Source: Halothiobacillus diazotrophicus | GTDB taxonomy: Bacteria; Pseudomonadota; Gammaproteobacteria; Halothiobacillales; Halothiobacillaceae | Length of the DNA stretch: 64,000 bases | Assembly: GCF_001663815.1 (NCBI RefSeq) | Contig: NZ_CP016027.1 | Coordinates: forward strand, 806,001-870,000 | Direction: 5' to 3' | Part shown: one piece after another, positions 692 through 38,136 of the stretch | How the letters are laid out: each line of letters begins with the position of its first letter | Position numbering within the stretch: position 1 is the first letter of the stretch | The notes under the pieces: generated by a model | Seen by the model: the letters and a program-made list of their open reading frames with translations, nothing else | Told to the model about the DNA's origin: nothing | Database searches by the model: none | Translations under genes and position numbers: made by a program

Positions 692-2143
692 ATGACAAAC
701 GCTCTCTTCCCAGTAATTTTGTGTGGTGGCGCGGGTTCGCGCCTTTGGCCCCTATCTCGAGAGCTGCATCCCAAACCCTTCATTCGCCTACCGGATGGGC
801 AGAGCCTGCTTCAGAAAGCCTTTTTGCGTGCAGCGGGTTTAACTGGCACCCGGCAGGTCATCACTGTGACCAATCGAGATCTGGTCTTCAAAATCGAAGA
901 CGAACTCAATGAGGTCAATCAGGACAATCTGGCCATCTCCTTGATTCTTGAGCCATCCGCTCGCAACACGGCTGCCGCCATCGCCTCTGCGGCACTGATG
1001 GTTGCCCGGAAGGATCCCCAGGCTTTGTTGCTCGTGCTGGCAGCAGACCACCTGATCGAAAACAAGGTAGCCTTCGAGGAAGCCGTCAATCAGGCCAAGC
1101 AGTTGGCCGAAAAAGGGCGCCTCGTCACCTTTGGTATCAAGCCGAACCAGCCGGAAACCGGTTATGGTTACATCGAATATCAGGAGAATCAGGTCATCCG
1201 CTTTGTCGAAAAACCGGACCTGCCTACGGCCATCGAGTTTGTCGCCAGCGAGCGCTTTCTGTGGAACTCCGGCATGTTCTGCTTCAAGGCCCAAACGGTA
1301 CTCGACGAGCTGGACAAATATGCACCGGAAATCCTCGACGCTGTCCGTGAAACCATTAGTCATTCCAAAATCTCGCAGGGCGTGACCAACAACAACGACT
1401 TCTTCCACTGCGAGCTGAACGCCGACGATTTCACCCGCGTCCCGGAAGAGTCCTTCGACTACGCGGTCATGGAACGCACCGAGAATGCAGCCGTAGTCCC
1501 GAGCGACATCGGCTGGAGCGACATCGGTTCTTGGCAGGCGCTGGGTGCCATCGGCCAAACGGATGGATCCGGCAACCGTCTGGATGGCGAAGTCATCATG
1601 CACGACGTGCACGACTGTTACATTCGCAGCGACAACCGTCTGGTCGGCGCCGTGGGCGTGGAAAACCTCGTCATCATCGACACGCCCGATGCCCTGCTGG
1701 TGGCGCACAAGGAGCGTAGCCAGGAAGTCAAACACCTGTTCAAGCAACTGAAGACTGCCGGCCACGAAGCCCATCGCCTGCATCGCACGGTACACCGCCC
1801 CTGGGGCACCTACACCGTGCTCGAGGAACGGCCGGACTTCAAGATCAAGCGCATCGTCGTAAAACCGGGCGCAACCCTCTCCCTGCAAATGCACCATCAC
1901 CGCAGCGAACACTGGGTGGTCGTGAGCGGTATGGCCAAGGTAGTGAACGGAAACAAGGAAATCCTGCTGGCAGCCAACGAGTCCACCTACATCCCGGCCG
2001 GTCAGAATCATCGGCTGGCCAACCCCGGCATGATTGACGTCGTCCTCATCGAAGTCCAGACCGGTCAATACCTGGGCGAAGACGATATCGTCCGCATCGA
2101 AGACGTATACGGTCGCGCACCAATAGAAACAACCAACAAATAA
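692..2143 (+). CDS. manC: Mannose-1-phosphate guanylyltransferase / mannose-6-phosphate isomerase
   Basis: Bifunctional cytoplasmic enzyme of 483 aa, the usual length. The N-terminal nucleotidyltransferase shows the signature CGGAGSRLWPLSRELHPKPF near residue 11 and the EKPD motif. The C-terminal cupin is a type II phosphomannose isomerase (RPWGTYTVLEE, then a metal-binding histidine cluster in LQMHHHRSEHW). It makes GDP-mannose, with ManB (17558-19042) supplying mannose-1-phosphate; Gmd and Rmd downstream then convert GDP-mannose. Base composition is normal for the host, and the A+T-rich cassette begins directly after its stop codon. Confidence 0.95.
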   Translation: MTNALFPVILCGGAGSRLWPLSRELHPKPFIRLPDGQSLLQKAFLRAAGLTGTRQVITVTNRDLVFKIEDELNEVNQDNLAISLILEPSARNTAAAIASAALMVARKDPQALLLVLAADHLIENKVAFEEAVNQAKQLAEKGRLVTFGIKPNQPETGYGYIEYQENQVIRFVEKPDLPTAIEFVASERFLWNSGMFCFKAQTVLDELDKYAPEILDAVRETISHSKISQGVTNNNDFFHCELNADDFTRVPEESFDYAVMERTENAAVVPSDIGWSDIGSWQALGAIGQTDGSGNRLDGEVIMHDVHDCYIRSDNRLVGAVGVENLVIIDTPDALLVAHKERSQEVKHLFKQLKTAGHEAHRLHRTVHRPWGTYTVLEERPDFKIKRIVVKPGATLSLQMHHHRSEHWVVVSGMAKVVNGNKEILLAANESTYIPAGQNHRLANPGMIDVVLIEVQTGQYLGEDDIVRIEDVYGRAPIETTNK

Positions 2144-2147
2144 CAAA

Positions 2148-3266
2148 ATGAAAAAAAAATTAACAAATTTATTCATATTCAAAAACAAGCTATTCACAAC
2201 AGTAGTAGCAGTACCAACATTGATATCGGTTTTATATTTCGGATTTATTGCATCAGATGTATATGTTTCAGTGTCAACACTTGTAATTAGGACCCCGGAA
2301 CATTCAACACCATCAGTACTCGGTCAATTTTTACAAGGAGTAGGTTTTAACACATCACAAAACGACTCTTTTACAGTAAAGGATTACCTGACATCCAGAG
2401 ACGCAATGAACTCATTAATCAGCAAAATGAATCTGCGTCAAGAATTCGAGAACAAAAACATAGACCCATTCAATAGATTTGGAGGTCTAATATACTGGGA
2501 AAACAATCTAGAAAACTTCTATAAATACTATGAAAAAAAAGTCAGCACCAAAATTGATCCATTATCAAGCATTCTTACATTAACGACACGCGCTTACACA
2601 GCAAAAGATGCATATCAAATGAATTCGCTGCTACTGAAACAAGCAGAAGGCCTGGTAAATAAATTGAATGATCGCGCCCAGCGCGACATGATAGGATTCG
2701 CAGAAGAAAATCTCACAAAGGCAGAAAACAAAGCAAAAGCCGCTTCATTAGCGATGGGGAAATATCGAAATCAATTCGGAGTAATTAACCCTGAAAAGCA
2801 GTCAGCAATACCATTGCAGCAGATCGCTAGGCTTCAAGACCAATTGCTAGCAACAAAAGTACAGATAATACAAATACAAACACTAACCAAAAACAACCCT
2901 CAACTACCAACACTCAAAGAACGTGCAGAATTACTAAAAAATGAAATAGCCCAAGAAACAGCCAAAGTAGCAGGATCAAGCGACAAATCACTCGCAAGCA
3001 AAGCAATAGAATATGAACGCTTATCACTCGATAACGAATATGCAGAGAGAGAGCTGATGAGCGCCATGGCATCTCTACAACAAGCAAGAACCCAAGCACA
3101 ACGACAACACATATATATAGAAAGAATCAGCGAGCCAAATACGCCCGACTCACCAACTGAACCCAAGAGAGCACAAGGCATACTGGCAACATTACTACTA
3201 TCGCTAATTGTATGGGGTATTTTAAGCATCCTTAATGCAGGCGTACGTGAGCATTATGACAGATAA
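2148..3266 (+). CDS. kpsE: Capsule export inner-membrane/periplasmic protein, KpsE/CtrB/BexC type
   Basis: A 372-aa polysaccharide co-polymerase family protein linking the ABC transporter to the outer-membrane channel. It has one N-terminal membrane segment (about residues 15-37), a long periplasmic part rich in helical, coiled-coil-like sequence (about residues 165-320) and a C-terminal membrane segment (about 345-365), the classic two-TM layout. The P-x-x-P motif before TM2 (TPDSPTEPKRAQG) is typical of the family. It begins 4 bp after manC and overlaps the first possible start of kpsM. Codon use is strongly A/T-biased compared with manC, indicating separate ancestry. Confidence 0.88.
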   Translation: MKKKLTNLFIFKNKLFTTVVAVPTLISVLYFGFIASDVYVSVSTLVIRTPEHSTPSVLGQFLQGVGFNTSQNDSFTVKDYLTSRDAMNSLISKMNLRQEFENKNIDPFNRFGGLIYWENNLENFYKYYEKKVSTKIDPLSSILTLTTRAYTAKDAYQMNSLLLKQAEGLVNKLNDRAQRDMIGFAEENLTKAENKAKAASLAMGKYRNQFGVINPEKQSAIPLQQIARLQDQLLATKVQIIQIQTLTKNNPQLPTLKERAELLKNEIAQETAKVAGSSDKSLASKAIEYERLSLDNEYAERELMSAMASLQQARTQAQRQHIYIERISEPNTPDSPTEPKRAQGILATLLLSLIVWGILSILNAGVREHYDR

Positions 3267-4053
3267 CACAGCCCCAAAATTCATAGACCAGTTAAGAATA
3301 CAACTCAGAGTAATATGGGCACTTACTCTGCGCGAAATGATAACGAGATACGGCAGGGAAGGTATAGGGATTATTTGGATCATTGCAGAACCTGCGATGT
3401 TTATCGTAGGCGTAATGATTATTTTTTCAGCTGCAGGTCACTCAGAGTTCACTGGGACTACGGTAGCAGAGTATCTAGCAGTCAGTTACCCTACTCTGCT
3501 TTTATGGAGGAATGGAACGGGGCGAGTAGTAAAAGCAGTTGACATAAATCGAGCTCTACTCCATCACAGGCCAGTGCGCCCTACAGATATTATTTATTCA
3601 AGAATTCTTCTAGAGTTCTCAAGTGCCACCGCATCCTTTTTAATATTATATTTGATTTTTGTAGCAATAGGAATTTGCGAGTGGCCAGCAAATCTACTTA
3701 CAATGATAACTGGATACATAATGGTGGTCTGGTTTTCATTTTCATTTGTACTATTCATGGCGGCACTATCCGAGCTTAGCGAGGCGATTGAAAGAGTATC
3801 TCACATTATTCTATACCTAAATCTACCATTTTCAGGTGTTTTCATAACAGCAGCAGCCGTTCCAGAACCATACAGAGATTATCTTTTACTATTCCCGCTA
3901 GTAAACTGTGTTGAGTGGTTCCACGATGGCTACTATGGGGATCGACTTCCAACATATTACAATCCTGAATACACGATAATCATGCTTTTATTAACAACAC
4001 TCATTAGCTACGCTTTAACAAATATTGCGAACAGACGCGTACAAAGCACCTGA
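3256..4053 (+). CDS. kpsM: Capsule ABC transporter permease, KpsM/CtrC type
   Basis: ABC-2 family permease with about six membrane segments. It shows the amphipathic N-terminal LRVIWALTLREMITRYGREGIG stretch typical of KpsM/Wzm proteins. I chose ATG 3256 (265 aa), which lies 11 nt inside the end of kpsE; an upstream in-frame ATG at 3235 would add seven residues and a longer overlap. With KpsT it forms the transporter that carries the finished lipid-linked polysaccharide across the inner membrane. A+T rich like its neighbours. Confidence 0.9.
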   Translation: MTDNTAPKFIDQLRIQLRVIWALTLREMITRYGREGIGIIWIIAEPAMFIVGVMIIFSAAGHSEFTGTTVAEYLAVSYPTLLLWRNGTGRVVKAVDINRALLHHRPVRPTDIIYSRILLEFSSATASFLILYLIFVAIGICEWPANLLTMITGYIMVVWFSFSFVLFMAALSELSEAIERVSHIILYLNLPFSGVFITAAAVPEPYRDYLLLFPLVNCVEWFHDGYYGDRLPTYYNPEYTIIMLLLTTLISYALTNIANRRVQST

Positions 4054-4062
4054 AAGAAAACC

Positions 4063-4716
4063 ATGCTAACACTCGAAAATATAAGCAAAAGGTATCCAAT
4101 CCATCACGGCAAGTCCGAAAGGACCGTTCTTGACGGGATAAGCATCAGAATCAAACCAGGGGAAAAATGGGGGATTTTAGGAAGAAATGGCGCAGGGAAA
4201 TCGACGCTTATTAGAATAATAAGCGGTGCAGAAATCCCTACTTCGGGGTCAGTAAAAAGAGACATGTCAATATCCTGGCCATTAGCATTTGGCGGTGCTT
4301 TCCAAGGAAGTTTAACAGGAAGAGACAATGTCAAACTAATATCCAGAATCTACAATGTAGACTTTGAAAAAACAATAAAGCTAGTTGAGGACTTTGCAGA
4401 ACTAGGGCCTTACCTAAACGAGCCAGTAAAAAACTACTCATCGGGGATGAGCTCACGACTGGCTTTCGCAATTTCAATGTCAATAGAATTTGACTGCTTC
4501 TTAATTGATGAAGGGATGTCAGTTGGGGACCATAGATTTCACCAAAAGTGCAACGTCGAACTCTTTGATAAAAGAGGAGATCGCGCGATGATTATCGTCG
4601 CCCACCAAACGGATCTAATTGCCAACCATTGCACAAACGCCGCGATTTTAGATGGCGGTAAATTAATCGAACACAGCTCTGTGAGTGAAGCCATAGAGCA
4701 CTATCACTCTTTATAA
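4063..4716 (+). CDS. kpsT: Capsule ABC transporter ATPase, KpsT/CtrD type
   Basis: ABC ATPase of 217 aa, the short form found in group 2/3 capsule exporters; it lacks the C-terminal carbohydrate-binding extension of Wzt proteins that export O-antigen. Walker A is GRNGAGKST (about residues 46-54), the signature is NYSSGMSSRL, and Walker B is CFLIDEGMSVGD. It follows kpsM after 9 bp. A+T rich. The absence of a binding extension fits export that recognises the conserved Kdo-lipid end instead of the chain terminus. Confidence 0.92.
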   Translation: MLTLENISKRYPIHHGKSERTVLDGISIRIKPGEKWGILGRNGAGKSTLIRIISGAEIPTSGSVKRDMSISWPLAFGGAFQGSLTGRDNVKLISRIYNVDFEKTIKLVEDFAELGPYLNEPVKNYSSGMSSRLAFAISMSIEFDCFLIDEGMSVGDHRFHQKCNVELFDKRGDRAMIIVAHQTDLIANHCTNAAILDGGKLIEHSSVSEAIEHYHSL

Positions 4717-4753
4717 CCCAAATCAATAATAATTTTACGGACACAATAGAACC

Positions 4754-7183
4754 ATGCACAGAACAAATAACACAACCGAAATTGATAATCTACTCCTAAG
4801 CCCACCCAACGAATTCATTGAAAAGGCTTACCTGGTCATTTTAGGCAGACACCCTGATAAGCAGGGATTAATTCACTACGCCTTCAAGCTGCAAAGTGGC
4901 TTCAACAGAATTCAAATAATTGGAGATATGCTTTGCTCCAAAGAGGCTAACAATGCTGAGCTAATTGGTAACGCTAAAACATTTATAAAAAAATATAAAA
5001 TAATCAAGAAACTCCCAAAAGGAACGCTTAAATGGCGGCTAATCAGCAATTTTTCATTTTCAGATGACGAAAAATTTGATTGGAGCAACTGGCTGGGCAG
5101 CATATTAATTCAGAAAAAAACGATAGCAAGTTCTAGCGAGAAGGTTATACGAACCTTTTTTGGACATGAGGAACTAGAAACCCTAAACGAAATTAACTCT
5201 CACATTAATAGCGAAGACCTCAACGAGGTTCTCATTAGTTTCCTGCGAATTACTGAAAAAAAACTAAACAGCACCACCAAATCCCTAGCAACCCCTCTAC
5301 CATCTGCGCCGCCAATTCATTTCCTTAATCACTCACAAGCACATCTAAAGCACGTCACAGACACACTTGAGTATCGCCCCAAAATATCGGCAGTAATTCC
5401 AAGTTATAATGACTACGAAGTATTAGAAAATTGCATTAATTCCATACTTAAATACAGCAATAATTTAATATCAGAAATAGTCATTAGCGATGACTGCAGC
5501 ACAAACCAATTACACAAAGATTATTTAGAAACCATTGCCTCTAAAGACATGGGAATTCCAATAACAATTATCAGGTCGAAGATAAATAAGGGTTTTTCTG
5601 CAAACGTTAACAGAGGATTGCGTGCAGCTAAATCTGGATCTGACATCTTACTATTAAATAGCGATACAGAGCTTACAGAGTTTTCAATAAGTTCTCTGTG
5701 TGCTGTTGCCAGAATGAACGGCGGTGTAGCAGGCGCACGACTATTGTACCCGAACAACAAAATCCAGCACGCAGGTGGTTTTAGAAATTTTAATGCACCA
5801 GATTGGTTTGAACACAGAAATAGAATGCAAGATCGATATCACCCACCTGCCTTAATGAACTATAACGCATTATACTGCACAGCAGCGGCCTTATACATAA
5901 CCAACGAAACATTGAAAGCAGTCGGCCATTTTGATGAAAATTTTGAAATGGGTTTCGAGGATGTTGACTATTGCCTCAGAGTATGGAATGAAAATCTACC
6001 TGTGACTTATGTAGGCGCCTCTGAAATATATCATCACGAATCAATTACCAGAGGCAAAAACCCTGGAAAAAGAGAAATAAACTCTCAAAATTTTTTTTGG
6101 GAGAAACAGGGGAAATTCTTCAAAAGAAAAGTAACTAACAGTCAAAAGAAAGTAAGCATTATATTTGTAACTAAAGATACCGGCGTAGGAGGCGGACATA
6201 GAGTAATTTTTAGATTTGCTGACTTTCTCGCCGGCCAATCAGACAGATACTCTGTACAAATCTGGTCACTCGCTTCGAAGCCGGATTGGTTTCAATTTAA
6301 TAATGATGTGAAATTTTCTCAATTCAACAATTTCGCAGAGCTTCAACAAGAGCTATATCCGCTAAACTCTATAAAAATAGCAACTTGGTGGGAAACAGCG
6401 GAACATGTATGGCGCAGCTCTATACTGAGAGGGATTCCAGTATGGCTATCACTAGATATTGAAACATCTTATTACAAGGGCAGAGACACATTTAATGAAT
6501 TAAGAGCCTGGTCTTCGTATGCACCAGATTTTACCTATATATCCTGCTATAAATGGCTTTCAGAAGCACTCGCAACAGATTTCTACTACCACTCGAAATA
6601 TGTGGGACTTGGTGTTGATAAAGATATCTTCTATAGAACAAAATCCAAGAAAATAAACAATTCAGTCCTTGTTTGCGCCAGAGGCGAACCCTTAAAGGGC
6701 TACCCTCTATCTAAAAGCATTATTCAAAACTTAGCAGACCAAGGGTACAAAATTACAGCATACGGTGTGGACCCCACTCTAGTGCCCGAACACATAAATA
6801 TCCATTTTAAACACAAACCGGGCAACGAGGAATTGCGAGAGCTTTACAATACTCATCAGTTTTTCCTACAGACTTCAATTCATGAGGGACTCAGTTTGCC
6901 TCCCCTTGAGGCTATGGCATGCGGATGTATTGCAGTAATTACAGATGCTTTTGGAAATCGAGAATACATCAAGGACAGAGAAAACTGTATACTCATCCAA
7001 AGATCAATTGAAGATGCTGTGAGCACTATACGGAGCATAGACTATGAGACAACATATTCAAAGCTTAAACCAGGCATCGAGAACACCTTGAGACATTACG
7101 ACTGGGAAGCGTGTTATAAGCGACTTGATGATTTAATCCTAAACATCTCTGAAGAACCAACCTTCGGAATAACGAAATATTAA
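4754..7183 (+). CDS. Two-domain glycosyltransferase (GT2 + GT4-like) with DUF4214-like N-terminus
   Basis: An 809-aa protein with three recognisable parts. Residues about 15-70 (AYLVILGRHPDKQGLIHY) resemble the DUF4214 module seen in some surface-polysaccharide enzymes. Residues about 210-460 are a GT-A fold family 2 domain: PSYNDYEVLENCINSIL, LLLNSDTELTE as the DXD-like site, IQHAGG, and the FEDVDYCLRVW motif. From about residue 470 onward there is a GT-B domain starting with a GVGGGHRVIF glycine-rich loop and ending with EGLSLPPLEAMACGC. It probably adds two sugars to the capsule repeat; which sugars cannot be read from sequence. A+T rich. Similar GT2-GT4 fusions include rhamnan synthesis proteins, consistent with the rhamnose genes here. 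Confidence 0.85.
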   Translation: MHRTNNTTEIDNLLLSPPNEFIEKAYLVILGRHPDKQGLIHYAFKLQSGFNRIQIIGDMLCSKEANNAELIGNAKTFIKKYKIIKKLPKGTLKWRLISNFSFSDDEKFDWSNWLGSILIQKKTIASSSEKVIRTFFGHEELETLNEINSHINSEDLNEVLISFLRITEKKLNSTTKSLATPLPSAPPIHFLNHSQAHLKHVTDTLEYRPKISAVIPSYNDYEVLENCINSILKYSNNLISEIVISDDCSTNQLHKDYLETIASKDMGIPITIIRSKINKGFSANVNRGLRAAKSGSDILLLNSDTELTEFSISSLCAVARMNGGVAGARLLYPNNKIQHAGGFRNFNAPDWFEHRNRMQDRYHPPALMNYNALYCTAAALYITNETLKAVGHFDENFEMGFEDVDYCLRVWNENLPVTYVGASEIYHHESITRGKNPGKREINSQNFFWEKQGKFFKRKVTNSQKKVSIIFVTKDTGVGGGHRVIFRFADFLAGQSDRYSVQIWSLASKPDWFQFNNDVKFSQFNNFAELQQELYPLNSIKIATWWETAEHVWRSSILRGIPVWLSLDIETSYYKGRDTFNELRAWSSYAPDFTYISCYKWLSEALATDFYYHSKYVGLGVDKDIFYRTKSKKINNSVLVCARGEPLKGYPLSKSIIQNLADQGYKITAYGVDPTLVPEHINIHFKHKPGNEELRELYNTHQFFLQTSIHEGLSLPPLEAMACGCIAVITDAFGNREYIKDRENCILIQRSIEDAVSTIRSIDYETTYSKLKPGIENTLRHYDWEACYKRLDDLILNISEEPTFGITKY

Positions 7184-7235
7184 GTTTATTGCCTACCCAT
7201 CAATACCGCCATGACAAAAAACACAAAATATTTAT

Positions 7236-8864
7236 ATGAGCAAACCACAGCCACATTCACAGCGTAACTCTTATGAAACAATTAAACCCGGACTCAACAT
7301 CAAACAAAGCAACATCAAAAAATCAATTTTGTTTGATTTAAGGCCAGCATTAGGAGGATATTTTGGCATCCCTCAAGTAACCAGGTTATTATATCTCGCA
7401 TTAACAAAACATTCAGGTTTTGATATATCCGGTCTAATTCAAGGCTCAACATCTGACATTGGGCCCGGCCTGCCTGTATCAACCGCGCAAAATCTTACTC
7501 AAGATAAGAAATTACATTTGCTATCCTCTACAGCCATTTCGATTACAGAAGATAAAAACAAGTGGCGCCGCAAGTCTGTACTATCCCTAACCAAATACTT
7601 ATTTGCACAACTGCTCGCAAGAGTATATGGCTGGACTAAAATCCATTCAGTTCAGTTAAAGCGATTTGAAACCGAGTATTTCTCGGACTTCATCTGGAAT
7701 GCACTTTTCTCCAAAACACTAAATCCATCGGACAAGCTGAAAGCATTAAAACCTGAGTGTTTCATTCTACCGTTATCACGATCAACAATGCACAGCATTG
7801 GACTTGACTCACTTATTTTATTCAAAACCCCCAGATATCCTTTAATAAATACCAGCGACTTTGATGTTTTAATTGCACAAATGCCATTTCCCGGCAAAGT
7901 TGCCAAGAATACAAAGCTAGTCATTCACTACCATGACTCCATACCTATGACTATGCCGCACACTATTTCAGACAAGAGGAGGCATGAGTCTACCCATTAC
8001 AATGCATTAGCTGAAAACATAAAATCTGGTGCTTACTTCGTTTGCGGATCAGAGACTGTAAGACAAGAACTAATTCAGTTTTTTCCAGAAGTAGAAAAAA
8101 ATGCAACAACAATTTACAGTTTCACCTCCTCAGAGTTTCACCCCGATATCACCAACACGCTAGACTTAAAGTCAATATTAAATAGATACTGCTACAACTA
8201 CCCGGACCTTTTCGAAACTGTCAAGAGAAATAAAGCAATCGATAATTCATACAAATTATCTATAAATCCAACATACCAGGCACTAGACGAAGTATTTTCC
8301 ACAAACAAACAACATAAATTTATTTTAATGGTCGCGACGTTGGAGCCTAGAAAAAATCATGAACTCTTAATTTCCGCTTGGGAAAAAGCCAGGAGCACAT
8401 GCGATAGAGATTTACTTTTAGTTCTTGTTGGTAGCATAGGTTGGGATTATGATAATATATTAAGATCCGCCGCACCGGGCATTAATGATGGACGGCTATT
8501 TGTTCTCCACGATGTACCAATTGATGTATTGCGACAGCTATACAGCAATGCTGCAGCCACCGTTTGCCCCAGCAGAGGTGAAGGGTTTGACTTGACAGGA
8601 CTAGAAGCCATGTGTTGCAGTGGAGCTGTAATCGCTTCGGATATTCCAGTCCATAAAGAAATATATGGTGATGGTGCTTTGTATTTTGACCCTTATGACC
8701 ACAACTCCTTATATAATCAAATAAAATACATCATCTACAACAGTGATTTTGAAACTATACAATCCACTCTACGCACAAAAGGTCTGAACCAATCCAAAAA
8801 ATACAACATAGATTCAATTGCCTCCCAATGGAACTCATTTATAACCACCATATGCTCAACATAG
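7236..8864 (+). CDS. Glycosyltransferase family 4
   Basis: A 542-aa GT-B glycosyltransferase with an unusually long N-terminal half. The C-terminal donor-binding half has the hallmark VATLEPRKNHELLISAW (about residue 366 onward), a VPIDVLRQLYSNAAATVCPSR stretch and the E-x7-E motif in GEGFDLTGLEAMCCSGAVIASD. The N-terminal half has the acceptor-side VIHYHDSIPMT motif. It belongs to the A+T-rich cassette, 52 bp after the preceding gene. The donor may be GDP- or dTDP-rhamnose or mannose, given the nucleotide sugars made in this locus (inference). Confidence 0.85.
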   Translation: MSKPQPHSQRNSYETIKPGLNIKQSNIKKSILFDLRPALGGYFGIPQVTRLLYLALTKHSGFDISGLIQGSTSDIGPGLPVSTAQNLTQDKKLHLLSSTAISITEDKNKWRRKSVLSLTKYLFAQLLARVYGWTKIHSVQLKRFETEYFSDFIWNALFSKTLNPSDKLKALKPECFILPLSRSTMHSIGLDSLILFKTPRYPLINTSDFDVLIAQMPFPGKVAKNTKLVIHYHDSIPMTMPHTISDKRRHESTHYNALAENIKSGAYFVCGSETVRQELIQFFPEVEKNATTIYSFTSSEFHPDITNTLDLKSILNRYCYNYPDLFETVKRNKAIDNSYKLSINPTYQALDEVFSTNKQHKFILMVATLEPRKNHELLISAWEKARSTCDRDLLLVLVGSIGWDYDNILRSAAPGINDGRLFVLHDVPIDVLRQLYSNAAATVCPSRGEGFDLTGLEAMCCSGAVIASDIPVHKEIYGDGALYFDPYDHNSLYNQIKYIIYNSDFETIQSTLRTKGLNQSKKYNIDSIASQWNSFITTICST

Positions 8865-8957
8865 CGCTAGGATTTTTCCACACAGAGATTATTTGCCATT
8901 CCACAACACCAATTTTATTATTTTCTTAATGATCGCCCTCAGTAAAACATCTTAAAA

Positions 8958-11859
<2,902 letters not shown>

Positions 11860-34407: not shown

Positions 34408-34414
34408 AGAGTCA

Positions 34415-34597
34415 GTCTTCTGAGGCGTGCGTCAGGTTCCTCTCAATCCCTTGAGCCTTAATCTGCGACTTTGGGGGGCGCACCAAGTCGGTCGTGTGCA
34501 GGTCCGTCGCGAACGGAAAGCCTTACACCCTCTGCGCGCCCCCCAGCTTGAACCTCTGGTTCAAGGTCGAAGAGCAACCAACGGCGTTTTGGAAGAC
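34415..34597 (+). ncRNA. ssrS: 6S RNA (RNA polymerase regulator)
   Basis: About 183 nt, matching the E. coli 184-nt RNA. The 12-bp closing stem is TCTTCTGAGGCG (34416-34427) paired with CGTTTTGGAAGA (34585-34596), including G-U pairs. Next, GGTT/AACC and CTCT/AGAG continue the stem. A long inner stem pairs GGGGGGCGCA with TGCGCGCCCCCC, and the diagnostic hairpin CTTGAACC-TCT-GGTTCAAG is shared with E. coli 6S. It is immediately upstream of ygfA, the conserved gammaproteobacterial position. It mimics an open promoter and binds the sigma-70 holoenzyme. Confidence 0.92.
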
Positions 34598-34617
34598 ACC
34601 CAACATCGGCTCGAACA

Positions 34618-35226
34618 ATGACCCCTTCCGCGGACAAATCCTCACTGCGTCGCCAACTTAGAGCTCTTCGCCGTGGCGTCGGCGGCTATCAGCGTCGCCT
34701 GAATCAGCAGCGCATTGTTCGCGCCCTCAACACTCTCCCCGCCCTTCGTAATGCCCGTCGTATCGCTGGCTACATCGCATTTGACGGCGAGCCCGATATC
34801 CGGGATTTCCTGCGTCGCTGGCCGGGCACGGTCTGGCTCCCCCGGGTCAATCGGGATCTCAGCCTGCATTTTCGTCCCACCTTCGATCTGAATGCGCGTC
34901 ACCCCAGACCCGCGGGCGCACGGCGAAATCAGTTCGGTATCCTCGAATCGCATCGCCATCCCCTGCTGCGGGCTGCAGACATGGATGCCCTGCTGATCCC
35001 GCTCGTGGGTTACGATGCGCTTGGCAACCGACTGGGCATGGGCGCCGGTTACTATGACCGGAGTCTGGCCAATCTACGGCATCCGAAACCCCTACTGATC
35101 GGTATCGCCTTCAGTTGTCAGTATGTGGCTCGGCTTCCAGCAGACCCGTGGGATATTCCGCTTGACTATATCGTCACGGAAAAAATGATCCTCAAACCCC
35201 CATTCAAACCAAGGAACAGAACATGA
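34618..35226 (+). CDS. ygfA: 5-formyltetrahydrofolate cyclo-ligase
   Basis: A 202-aa ATP-dependent enzyme converting 5-formyl-THF to methenyl-THF. The N-terminal KSSLRRQLRALRRG, the IAGYIAFDGEPDI segment, and the signature GNRLGMGAGYYDRSL (about residues 137-151) are visible. It starts at ATG 34618, 20 nt after the 6S RNA, and is probably cotranscribed with it, as in E. coli. Its stop overlaps the next start (ATGA). Confidence 0.94.
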   Translation: MTPSADKSSLRRQLRALRRGVGGYQRRLNQQRIVRALNTLPALRNARRIAGYIAFDGEPDIRDFLRRWPGTVWLPRVNRDLSLHFRPTFDLNARHPRPAGARRNQFGILESHRHPLLRAADMDALLIPLVGYDALGNRLGMGAGYYDRSLANLRHPKPLLIGIAFSCQYVARLPADPWDIPLDYIVTEKMILKPPFKPRNRT

Positions 35227-35684
35227 ATTACTGGCTGATGAAGTGCGAGCCGGACGTTTTCTCGATTGACGATCTGGCTCGCCAGAAAGTCGAGGGCTGG
35301 TATGGCATTCGCAATTACCAGGCGCGCAACATGATGCGCGATGCCATGCGGATCGGCGATCAGGTATTTTTTTACCATTCGAACGTCAAGGTTCCGGGCA
35401 TCGTTGGCCTCATGGAGGTCATCAGCAAGCCCTACCCGGACCCCACCCAGTTCGACCCCGACCACCGCTACTTCGACCCGAAGGCGACGCCGGAACAACC
35501 ACGCTGGGTCCAGGTGGATGTCCAGTACATCCGCCACACCCGACGACTGATCTCATTGGAAGAATTGAAAAAGGACGATTCGCTCGGTGAGTTACCGCTT
35601 CTTCGTCGCGGCAACCGACTTTCAATCATGCCTGTTGGAAAAAGTGATTGGCAACGCATCCTGGAACTCGAGGCGGCGAACTGA
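35223..35684 (+). CDS. EVE domain protein
   Basis: A 153-aa single-domain protein of the EVE/PUA-like family (MNYWLMKCEPDVFSIDDL, then GWYGIRNYQARNMMRD, FFYHSNVKVPGIVGLMEV and DVQYIRHTRRLIS). EVE domains recognise modified bases in DNA or RNA. Start ATG 35223 overlaps the ygfA stop by 4 nt. Cotranscription with ssrS-ygfA is likely. A hairpin GGCGGCGAA/TTCGCCGCC (35672-35698) spans the stop codon; it lacks a U-tract. Confidence 0.92.
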   Translation: MNYWLMKCEPDVFSIDDLARQKVEGWYGIRNYQARNMMRDAMRIGDQVFFYHSNVKVPGIVGLMEVISKPYPDPTQFDPDHRYFDPKATPEQPRWVQVDVQYIRHTRRLISLEELKKDDSLGELPLLRRGNRLSIMPVGKSDWQRILELEAAN

Positions 35685-35730
35685 CATTTTTCGCCGCCCC
35701 AGCACAAGATTTGCAAACTTCCGCCTGAAT

Positions 35731-36530
35731 TTATCCACAAACTGTACAGGTACAGTGCCGAGCAGACACATGCGCTACCAGATCACTCACGGGCCTGCAA
35801 GGATAGCGCAACAAAAAAACGTCAACCATTAGTTTCTATAGATTACAGTCACTTACAACAGATTAAAATGACCCCGCCGCTACCTGGCGTTTTTTTGATC
35901 AAATAAGCAAGCTCTTGATACGAAAACAGCCCCGCACGATCACCGGCGATTGCACACAATCTTATCCACAGGTTCTGGGGATAACCAAGTACGCAGATAA
36001 GGGGTAATGACGAGCGCGTGAACTGAAGTGGCGCGCACCGCCAGAATGCTCGATCGCCGGAATGAGTCTTTTGGGTGCATCCGTTCAGATGGCAAAGGAG
36101 AAGCACCCGATCCTGCATTCAAATCGTTCGGTTTCTCAACGCATCATGCACCATGGTGTCAGCGTGCAATTTCTCCCCTGCAGAATGGAACCGATACAAA
36201 CCCAGAGATTACGCCGGAGGAGGACGAATTCATCATGAATTCGGGGACTTGACGCCCAATCATTAAATTCTGTTATCCACACTATCATTGAACCGTCATA
36301 GGGCATCACCAATCAGCTATCATGCTGCCGACCAATCTGCAACATTCCGTAACCCCCACCACCAGCATCTTGTTTATTCTTTTATATATCAAACTGTTAA
36401 ATAACAGCACGCCATGACACCCAATGAGTTGGCTATTTTGTCACCATCGGTGCTAAGTCCTTGACACACTGCGCCGGGCAGGGGATTCCAGACAGTCATC
36501 CACGGGGTTATCCACAGGAATTGTGTGTAA
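35731..36530. other. DnaA-box cluster in a 0.9-kb non-coding region (possible replication-control locus)
   Basis: The stretch between the EVE gene and ilvA (35685-36612) has no credible gene. It contains four perfect TTATCCACA boxes on the + strand at 35731-35739, 35962-35970, 36273-36281 and 36508-36516. Near-matches are TGGGGATAA (35976-35984, reverse orientation), TGTGTGTAA (36522-36530, reverse) and TCATCCACG just before the last box. An A+T-rich patch lies at 36369-36405. A perfect 9-mer is expected less than once by chance in the whole window. This could be oriC, a DnaA-titration site or a DnaA-regulated region; the classical gammaproteobacterial oriC neighbours (mnmG, mioC, dnaA) are absent. 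Confidence 0.6.
36226..36242. repeat. Perfect 8-bp inverted repeat
   Basis: GAATTCAT, one spacer base, ATGAATTC. It lies within the non-coding DnaA-box region, 30 bp before the third box. It could be a protein-binding site; no gene start is near. Confidence 0.6.
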
Positions 36531-36612
36531 CTTTTTGCGAGAAGCTACGTGCATCAGGTTGGGGGCTTTGGATCGATCACGGTGCATTGCGCCCCCCGGG
36601 AACTAGGTCAGC

Positions 36613-38136
36613 TCAGGCCAAAAATAGCGAATAGACGGGATTGTCGCTCTCTGCCCAATAGGGGTATCCCAGACGGGTCAAATAGTCGGTCAGCGCCACA
36701 GTTTCGGCCTCTGGCACCTGGACACCGACGAGAACTCGACCGTAATCCGCACCATGATTCCGATAGTGGAACAAACTGATGTTCCAACGGGCGCCCAGAT
36801 GGGTCAGAAATTTCAGCAGCGCCCCGGGACGCTCCGGAAACTCGAATCGAAACAGCCGCTCGTCCCGAATATTCCGAGCGTGCCCGCCGACCATGTGTCT
36901 GGCATGGAGTTTGGCAAGCTCGTTATCGGTGAGATCCAGGACCGGATACTCGGCCATTGCCAGCCTGTTGTAGACGGCCGCGCGATCGCCCGGCGCATCG
37001 AGACGAATCCCCACGAAGATGTGGGCACGATCGTCATCCGCATACCGGTAGTTGAATTCGGTGATCTGCCGCCGTCCCAACAGTTCGCAAAACGCTTTGA
37101 AGCTCCCTGGCCGTTCGGGGATCGTCACCGCATACAAGGCTTCGCGCTGCTCGCCGATGTCCGCGCGCTCGGCCACGAAGCGCAGCCGATCGAAATTCAT
37201 GTTCGCCCCCGAGGCGATCGCGATCAGGGTTTTTCCCTGCAGGTCGTGCATCTTCACATAGCGCTTCAGACCGGCCAGGGCCAAGGCACCCGCCGCCTCG
37301 TTGATCTGGCGGGTGTCGTCGAACATGTCCTTGATCGCCGCCGTCATCGCATCGGTGTCCACCGTGATGACCTCATCCACGGCCTCGCGCGCGACGGCGA
37401 AGGGATACTCGCCCACCTGGCGTACGGCCACGCCTTCGGCGAACAGGCCAACATGATCCAGCATCACCCGTTCGCCGGCCTTCAGTGCGGCAGACAAACA
37501 GGCGGCATCCTCGGGCTCGACTCCGATGATCCGTATATCCGGGCGCAGCATCTTCACATAGGCCGCGACACCGGCAACCAGTCCGCCGCCACCCACTGGC
37601 ACGAAGATCGCGTGAATCGGATCGGGGTGATGACGCAGAATCTCCGCGCCGATGGTGCCCTGCCCGGCGATGACATCCGGGTCATCGAAGGGCGGGATAT
37701 ATACGAGCCCCTCGGTCGCTTCGAGCTGTCTGGCATGTGCATAGGCCTCCTCGAAGGTATCCCCGAACAGGACGGCTTCGGCACCGCGCCGGCGTACGGC
37801 ATCGACTTTGATCCCCGGCGTAGTCTGAGGCATCACGATGACGGCTCGCAGGCCCAGTTTCTGCGCCGCCATGGCGACGCCCTGCGCATGATTGCCAGCC
37901 GACGCGGTGATCACACCGGCCTCAAGCAGGCCGTCTTGCCAGAGTCGATGAATCTTGTTGTAGGCGCCGCGCAACTTGAAGGAGAAAACGGGCTGGGTAT
38001 CCTCACGCTTCAGCAGGACCCGATTCTTCAACCGCTCGGAAATCAGCGTCGCCGGTTCCAGGGGGGTGTCCACCGCCACGTCGTAAACCCGGGCCGTCAG
38101 AATGCGGTGCAGATAATCTTGAAGTAGTGCGGACAA
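36613..38136 (-). CDS. ilvA: Threonine ammonia-lyase, biosynthetic
   Basis: PLP enzyme of 507 aa, making 2-oxobutanoate from threonine for isoleucine synthesis. The catalytic domain has the Schiff-base Lys54 in SFKLRGAYN, SAGNHAQGVA and the glycine loop GGGGLVAG. Two ACT-like regulatory domains follow (AVTIPERPGSFKAFCELL and FEFPERPGALLKFLTHL), as in the isoleucine-inhibited long form. It is divergent from rpiA, with a 142-bp shared promoter region (38137-38278) containing no gene. Confidence 0.96.
   Translation of the reverse strand: MSALLQDYLHRILTARVYDVAVDTPLEPATLISERLKNRVLLKREDTQPVFSFKLRGAYNKIHRLWQDGLLEAGVITASAGNHAQGVAMAAQKLGLRAVIVMPQTTPGIKVDAVRRRGAEAVLFGDTFEEAYAHARQLEATEGLVYIPPFDDPDVIAGQGTIGAEILRHHPDPIHAIFVPVGGGGLVAGVAAYVKMLRPDIRIIGVEPEDAACLSAALKAGERVMLDHVGLFAEGVAVRQVGEYPFAVAREAVDEVITVDTDAMTAAIKDMFDDTRQINEAAGALALAGLKRYVKMHDLQGKTLIAIASGANMNFDRLRFVAERADIGEQREALYAVTIPERPGSFKAFCELLGRRQITEFNYRYADDDRAHIFVGIRLDAPGDRAAVYNRLAMAEYPVLDLTDNELAKLHARHMVGGHARNIRDERLFRFEFPERPGALLKFLTHLGARWNISLFHYRNHGADYGRVLVGVQVPEAETVALTDYLTRLGYPYWAESDNPVYSLFLA

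Follow-up and report, generated by a model that had tools for sequence, protein, structure and literature searches.

The 64,000-nucleotide stretch analyzed here (the window; positions 806001-870000 of the chromosome) comes from Halothiobacillus diazotrophicus, a sulphur oxidiser whose chromosome is a single contig of 2,908,964 bases (2.91 Mb). A spacer of 928 bp (35685-36612) separates two converging genes. On its 5' flank lies a plus-strand gene for a protein of 153 aa (35223-35684), which had no NCBIfam match and presumably encodes an EVE-domain protein, and on its 3' flank lies ilvA, encoding threonine ammonia-lyase on the minus strand (36613-38136; annotation scan). The stop codons of the two genes border the spacer on either side, bearing out the description in a first-pass annotation of gene blocks that converge on a 0.9-kb gap. 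Further upstream are the 6S RNA and a 5-formyltetrahydrofolate cyclo-ligase gene, and past ilvA lies rpiA. We take the spacer to be gene-free, the open reading frames listed within it being short. Promoter-type regulation of a neighbor by DnaA was ruled out, as the spacer adjoins the 3' end of each flanking gene, and so was an RNA gene within it, as Rfam at gathering thresholds returned only the 6S RNA (34414-34599), upstream of the cyclo-ligase gene and outside the spacer. Elsewhere in the window, positions 2001-10703 have a G+C content of about 0.39, compared with 0.6 in much of the window, and contain three glycosyltransferase-domain genes; this segment looks like an acquired surface-polysaccharide cluster.

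An exact-match scan of the 64-kb window located four perfect DnaA boxes (TTATCCACA) at 35731, 35962, 36273, and 36508, all on the plus strand and spanning 786 bp of the spacer, with no further copies in the rest of the window. Shuffled windows contained 0.29 copies on average and none of 100 shuffles reached four, upholding the initial claim that such clustering lies beyond chance. The whole genome has 14 copies, comprising the four in the spacer, four near dnaA (2051773-2054308), and six that are scattered. Near-boxes, also reported at the outset, are present as TTATCCCCA at 35976 on the minus strand and as TTGCACACA, TCATCCACG, and TTACACACA at conserved positions. The single orientation ascribed to the array holds for the perfect boxes and fails for the array overall, since each of the boxes at 35962 and 36508 has a weaker, inverted partner 14 bp downstream.

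On its minus strand the spacer resolves into two tandem modules of about 250 bp, each opening with a box I followed after 5 bp by an inverted box II and after another 3 bp by a box III (start spacings of 14 and 12 bp). The core of module A (35950-35984, minus strand) comprises box I at 35976-35984 (TTATCCCCA on the minus strand), box II (TTATCCACA, 35962-35970, plus), and box III (TTGCACACA, 35950-35958, plus). A consensus scan predicted an IHF-type site, TATCAAGAGCTTG (a perfect WATCAANNNNTTR), at 35908-35920 on the minus strand, +64 from box I and close to a T-run (35890-35896), and an exact match to TTATCCACA at 35731-35739 (plus) forms a distal DnaA box at +245. A second IHF-type site at +126 to +131 was absent from module A of this genome at ≤1 mismatch. 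In module B, the core (36496-36530, minus) is built from box I at 36522-36530 (TTACACACA on the minus strand), box II (TTATCCACA, 36508-36516, plus), and box III (TCATCCACG, 36496-36504, plus). Two IHF-type sites are predicted here by consensus scan, TGTCAAGGACTTA with one mismatch at +64 (36454-36466, minus) and a perfect TATCAAACTGTTA at +131 (36387-36399, plus), the second sitting within an A+T-rich patch. The distal box, an exact TTATCCACA at +249 (36273-36281, plus), is invariant at all nine bases in nine aligned genomes. Box III is weak in the modules, as it is in E. coli.

The same geometry is found in the DnaA-reactivating sequences (DARS) of E. coli MG1655, where in DARS1 and DARS2 alike a plus-strand box I is followed by two minus-strand boxes, box II starting 14 bp after it and box III starting 12 bp after box II, a spacing and orientation that the available text of PMC5742627 describes as common to the two. 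At the level of sequence, the spacer thus holds two modules, each with a core that reproduces the DARS geometry exactly, a distal box, and, on the side of box III, one or two predicted IHF-type sites. The core pattern used for scanning, TTATCCACN6TGTGGATAAN3TGTG, was derived from E. coli DARS1 together with the sequences described here, and its matches within the genus are partly by construction. It matches with one mismatch in module A (35955-35984) and with three in module B (36501-36530); among the E. coli controls, DARS1 matched with none and DARS2 with two, and the datA region had no match at ≤3 mismatches. The four pattern matches in the window are these two palindromic sites read on both strands, and the shuffled window had none.

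A search of 40 genomes, this one among them, with the EVE protein gave matches in 32, including all 10 of the genus. In nine of the ten Halothiobacillus genomes, again including this one, a spacer of 603-998 bp (ilvA stop codon counted) lies between the EVE gene and ilvA, and the box array is present in all nine of these spacers. In the tenth genome (G008, 81% complete), neither boxes nor ilvA were found beside the EVE gene, and the matching record L038 is alike. This one lineage (L122, which is G008, and L038) carries a core on another contig (G008:C215:3195). Outside the genus, a perfect box near the EVE gene was found at none of 20 loci (L127-L146; two further matches had no locus), and 76 named EVE loci (L041-L116), scanned over 1.5 kb after the gene with five stretches shorter than 0.9 kb, yielded no core at ≤3 mismatches and a single perfect box, at L104. 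Given the absence of the array at the EVE loci scanned from other genera, the place is genus-specific, whereas the core is not.

Conservation within the spacer follows the proposed features. In the nine-genome alignment, majority identity was 0.866 in box and IHF-type columns vs 0.502 elsewhere, and none of 799 slid masks reached 0.866, in a test that was not blind, as the mask features were picked after viewing the alignment. The box I-II pair (≤3 mismatches summed) is retained in 15 of the 18 modules of these genomes and is missing from module B of G001, G002, and G009, where box I is degenerate. Of the 15 modules that have the pair, 14 also carry a distal box (≤1 mismatch) between +234 and +249. 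As judged from this alignment, most members of the genus have kept the modules, whereas the DNA between their features diverges.

The core was present at ≤3 mismatches in all 10 genus genomes (in G008 at another place only), at ≤2 mismatches in all 27 genomes of the family, and at ≤1 mismatch in 238 of 370 sampled gammaproteobacterial genomes, about two thirds, being absent at that threshold from the other 132. A backward-pattern control gave none among the matches listed in the class search. Its spacing is strict: widening the box I-II spacer to 6 bp left matches in 4 of the 370 genomes vs 238, and a box II-III spacer of 4 bp gave 0 of 114 vs 70 with the true spacing (hand count, same 114 genomes). 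In a sample of the phylum, 114 of 299 genomes matched, 82 of them among the 114 genomes of the class and 32 among the 185 of other classes (hand count). Distance to dnaA was examined in 18 genomes, 14 of them single contigs; in those 14, none of the 23 cores among the matches listed is closer to dnaA than about 0.115 Mb, and in G101 (20 contigs) one core lies about 54 kb away (C1:95439 vs C1:149368). From these distances, the core sites are in general probably not origins. A symmetric form of the core, with a box-III-like end on both sides of one I-II pair and matches on both strands (≤1 mismatch), also turned up in the pattern scan, for example at G210:C62:64822-64858, G430:C13:38660-38696, G456:C29:10060-10096, and G591:C1:229670-229706.

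For the spacing of accessory sites, IHF-type sequences were scanned with TAAnnnnTTGATW, the consensus given for DARS2 in the available text of PMC4245941. The family set comprised 46 loci (26 from Halothiobacillus and 20 others) after matches without a locus id and the opposite-strand duplicates L169, L172, L175, and L179 had been dropped; class anatomy was taken from 30 loci out of the matches in 238 genomes, which were not a random draw and include some close relatives (L207/L208). At ≤1 mismatch, an IHF-type site lies at +64 in 13 of the 26 Halothiobacillus loci, these being all 13 EVE-ilvA loci scanned, at +54 in nine, and at +118 to +122 in nine (0.41 expected per 5-position window); the +118 to +122 position is likewise occupied in 12 of the 20 other family loci (0.16 expected) and in 15 of the 30 class loci (0.24 expected), and 20 of the 30 class loci have a minus-strand distal box between +200 and +213, a place where no box has the opposite orientation, though the scanned loci are related to each other and these counts are not independent events. 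The offsets +54 and +64, and likewise +120 and about +130, are about one helical turn apart. The genome studied here also has a second DARS-type locus at G000:C1:639448-639477 (L160, 1501-1530; three mismatches), situated at 0.97 of the half-chromosome, with an IHF-type site at +54 and a distal box at +204 and adjoining an ArsR/phosphatase-like gene; its equivalent in several other species adjoins a gloA-like gene. Six of the 10 second-locus Halothiobacillus sites have a strict Fis consensus (GNNYANNNNNTRNNC) at +75; the other 23 family loci (20 from other genera plus L153, L168, and L177) have it at +75 in eight cases and at +85/+86 in seven, and nine of the 30 class loci have it at +86. None of the 13 EVE-ilvA loci has it between the core and the distal box, in a scan of strict sites beside which weaker ones may exist, and because of this the EVE-ilvA modules look like a Fis-free version.

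The proteins that a DARS would call upon are largely recognizable in the genome. Hda is encoded (TIGR03420, 210.7 bits; cut-off 194.8), as are IHF-alpha and IHF-beta, both above their cut-offs; an HU-like protein scored below cut-offs and a Fis-like protein reached 95.9 bits, below its cut-off of 122. Host DnaA is identical to E. coli DnaA at 284 of 458 aligned residues and keeps R227, D269, R285, and L290. R227, D269, and L290 are used in the DARS reaction according to the available text of PMC5742627 and PMC4245941, and all three are present in the host protein.

The place of the spacer on the chromosome was mapped by GC skew in 23 stretches of 20 kb, 20 across the chromosome and three of the window. 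Skew is positive in the stretches between 1 and 520 kb, close to zero (-0.0075) at 580 kb, negative in those between 650 kb and 1.975 Mb, including all three taken from the window, and once more positive from 2.15 Mb onward; the change of sign falls inside 2.045-2.065 Mb. The skew check named in the first-pass annotation has thus, in the sampled stretches, put the negative-to-positive turn near 2.05 Mb and not at the spacer. dnaA lies at 2.059 Mb, and three perfect boxes are clustered within 54 bp at 2051773-2051826 (two minus, one plus), with another at 2054300. Together, the skew profile and dnaA place oriC near 2.05 Mb and the terminus near 0.55-0.6 Mb. The spacer is 1.21 Mb from this oriC, or 0.83 of the half-chromosome (0.59 in G009, a 2,582,886-bp contig), and its intergenic position between oriC and terminus, away from oriC, fits what is expected of a DARS.

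We propose that the spacer is probably a tandem pair of DARS-type elements that would help ADP-DnaA to exchange its nucleotide. By analogy with E. coli, Hda-dependent hydrolysis would yield ADP-DnaA, which would assemble head-to-head on boxes I and II and also on box III; IHF would bend the DNA, and the distal box with its DnaA would touch the core complex. ADP would then be released, and apo-DnaA would leave and bind ATP, raising ATP-DnaA ahead of the following initiation at oriC, 1.21 Mb away. Tandem modules would mean more sites or a cooperative complex.

An unlikely alternative, if the best placed of those we weighed, is a datA-like site, at which IHF-dependent assembly of ATP-DnaA would promote ATP hydrolysis and lower initiation. 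Hda and IHF are both encoded, and the order of a plus-strand box, an IHF site (TAANNNNTTGATW with its T-run), a second plus-strand box, and an inverted box resembles a stretch of MG1655 datA (L149: boxes at 2245+, IHF at 2310-, boxes at 2407+ and 2419-). However, datA has no core-pattern match and its inverted pair is spaced 12 bp start to start instead of the 14 bp seen here and in both DARS, and on these two grounds the spacer does not show the datA arrangement of boxes 2, 3, and 7 around a single IHF site, and membership in datA was ruled out. Moreover, in E. coli about 0.5 Mb separates dnaA (3.88 Mb) from datA (4.39 Mb), whereas the spacer stands at 0.83 of the half-chromosome. Of the earlier suggestion of a datA-like DnaA-titration site, the idea of a DnaA-controlling site stands and the datA part does not, the core anatomy fitting DARS better.

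A passive cluster that titrates DnaA with no catalytic role seems slightly less likely again. The spacer does hold 4 of the 14 perfect boxes of the genome, but titration depends on the number of boxes and not on fixed spacing, whereas here the core keeps one spacing and the IHF-type site one offset from genome to genome, the distal box shifts little (+234 to +249), and the class-wide signal all but disappears when the spacer is changed by 1 bp. Conservation of spacing, and not of box number alone, is what makes a datA-type or titration role less likely. Much less probable than either is a DnaA/IHF roadblock or terminator that would prevent read-through between converging genes. The flanking genes do converge at the spacer, and box-bound DnaA can block RNA polymerase in E. 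coli, going by titles in the reference list of PMC10950094. Such a device does not need three phased boxes and a phased IHF site, however, and the genes that flank the class cores are diverse; 5 of the 30 class loci (L217, L219, L220, L225, and L226) have a neighbor of one family, PriA in the one scanned (L217). Finally, that the spacer might be oriC, as first suspected, or a second active origin is hardly credible despite its clustered boxes, IHF-type site, and A+T-rich patch, because no skew switch occurs there, while dnaA, the inverted three-box cluster, and the switch lie together near 2.05 Mb, a position that rules out oriC at the spacer, and the core pattern has no match at ≤3 mismatches in the 20 kb around the oriC of this genome.

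The tandem DARS reading would extend a family of elements that has been studied in E. coli, with DARS-like sequences described so far, in the available text of the sources, from E. coli-like species (PMC4585315 and PMC5010248), V. cholerae (PMC6090056), and "E. coli-proximal" beta- or gammaproteobacteria (PMC5742627). At the level of titles, abstracts, and excerpts, our literature search showed DARS work in E. coli, no DARS report for Halothiobacillus, and no tandem DARS, and the literature on Halothiobacillus, DnaA, and oriC held nothing on DARS by title or abstract start. Tentatively, and with slightly more doubt than confidence, we suggest that DARS is a standard gammaproteobacterial part and not peculiar to the relatives of E. 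coli, with a core, a Fis-type site near +75/+86, IHF at +120, and a distal box near +204, of which the Halothiobacillus EVE-ilvA tandem would be a variant: an extra IHF-type site at +64 would replace Fis, the distal box would lie about four helical turns outward, and the product would be a Fis-free, possibly growth-phase-independent DnaA recharger. A sequence rule that joins core spacing, a phased IHF site, and a distal box would allow DnaA-recharging candidates to be located across the class and would make the DnaA cycle (inactivation by Hda, reactivation by DARS) testable outside enterics. A tandem, apparently Fis-free DARS would further reveal which parts of the mechanism are needed.

Among known systems, DARS2, in the rppH/mutH interval of E. 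coli, resembles the Halothiobacillus modules in core orientation and in the 14/12-bp start spacing, and the two are alike in having IHF sites (predicted ones in the modules) on the box-III side and an intergenic position away from oriC. IHF is needed by DARS2 in E. coli, and its sites IBS1-2 are described in the available text of PMC4245941 with a 3-bp gap, as in our scan, where the two best IHF sites were found at +93 and +109, 3 bp apart. These offsets differ from the +64 and +131 of the Halothiobacillus modules. DARS2 also has a Fis consensus at +145 and requires Fis, whereas the Halothiobacillus modules have no strict Fis consensus equivalent to FBS2-3. Its distal box, at +211, has the same orientation as box I, while those of the Halothiobacillus modules, at +245/+249, are opposite to it. 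DARS2 is single and adjoins mutH and rppH, in contrast to two tandem modules beside the EVE-domain gene and ilvA. DARS1, in the bioD-uvrB spacer, matches the core pattern with no mismatch, compared with one for module A, and, unlike the Halothiobacillus modules, is a single element whose spacer has no IHF consensus at ≤1 mismatch. datA shares with the Halothiobacillus spacer boxes that flank an IHF site with a T-run and departs from it, and from both DARS, in its inverted pair (12 vs 14 bp). Close counterparts also exist within the genus itself, in the second DARS-type loci (e.g., G000:639448-639477), which have the same core as the EVE-ilvA modules but in single copy, and whose IHF-type sites, at +54 in nine of ten and at +119 to +121 in nine, are set about one helical turn off those of the EVE-ilvA modules.
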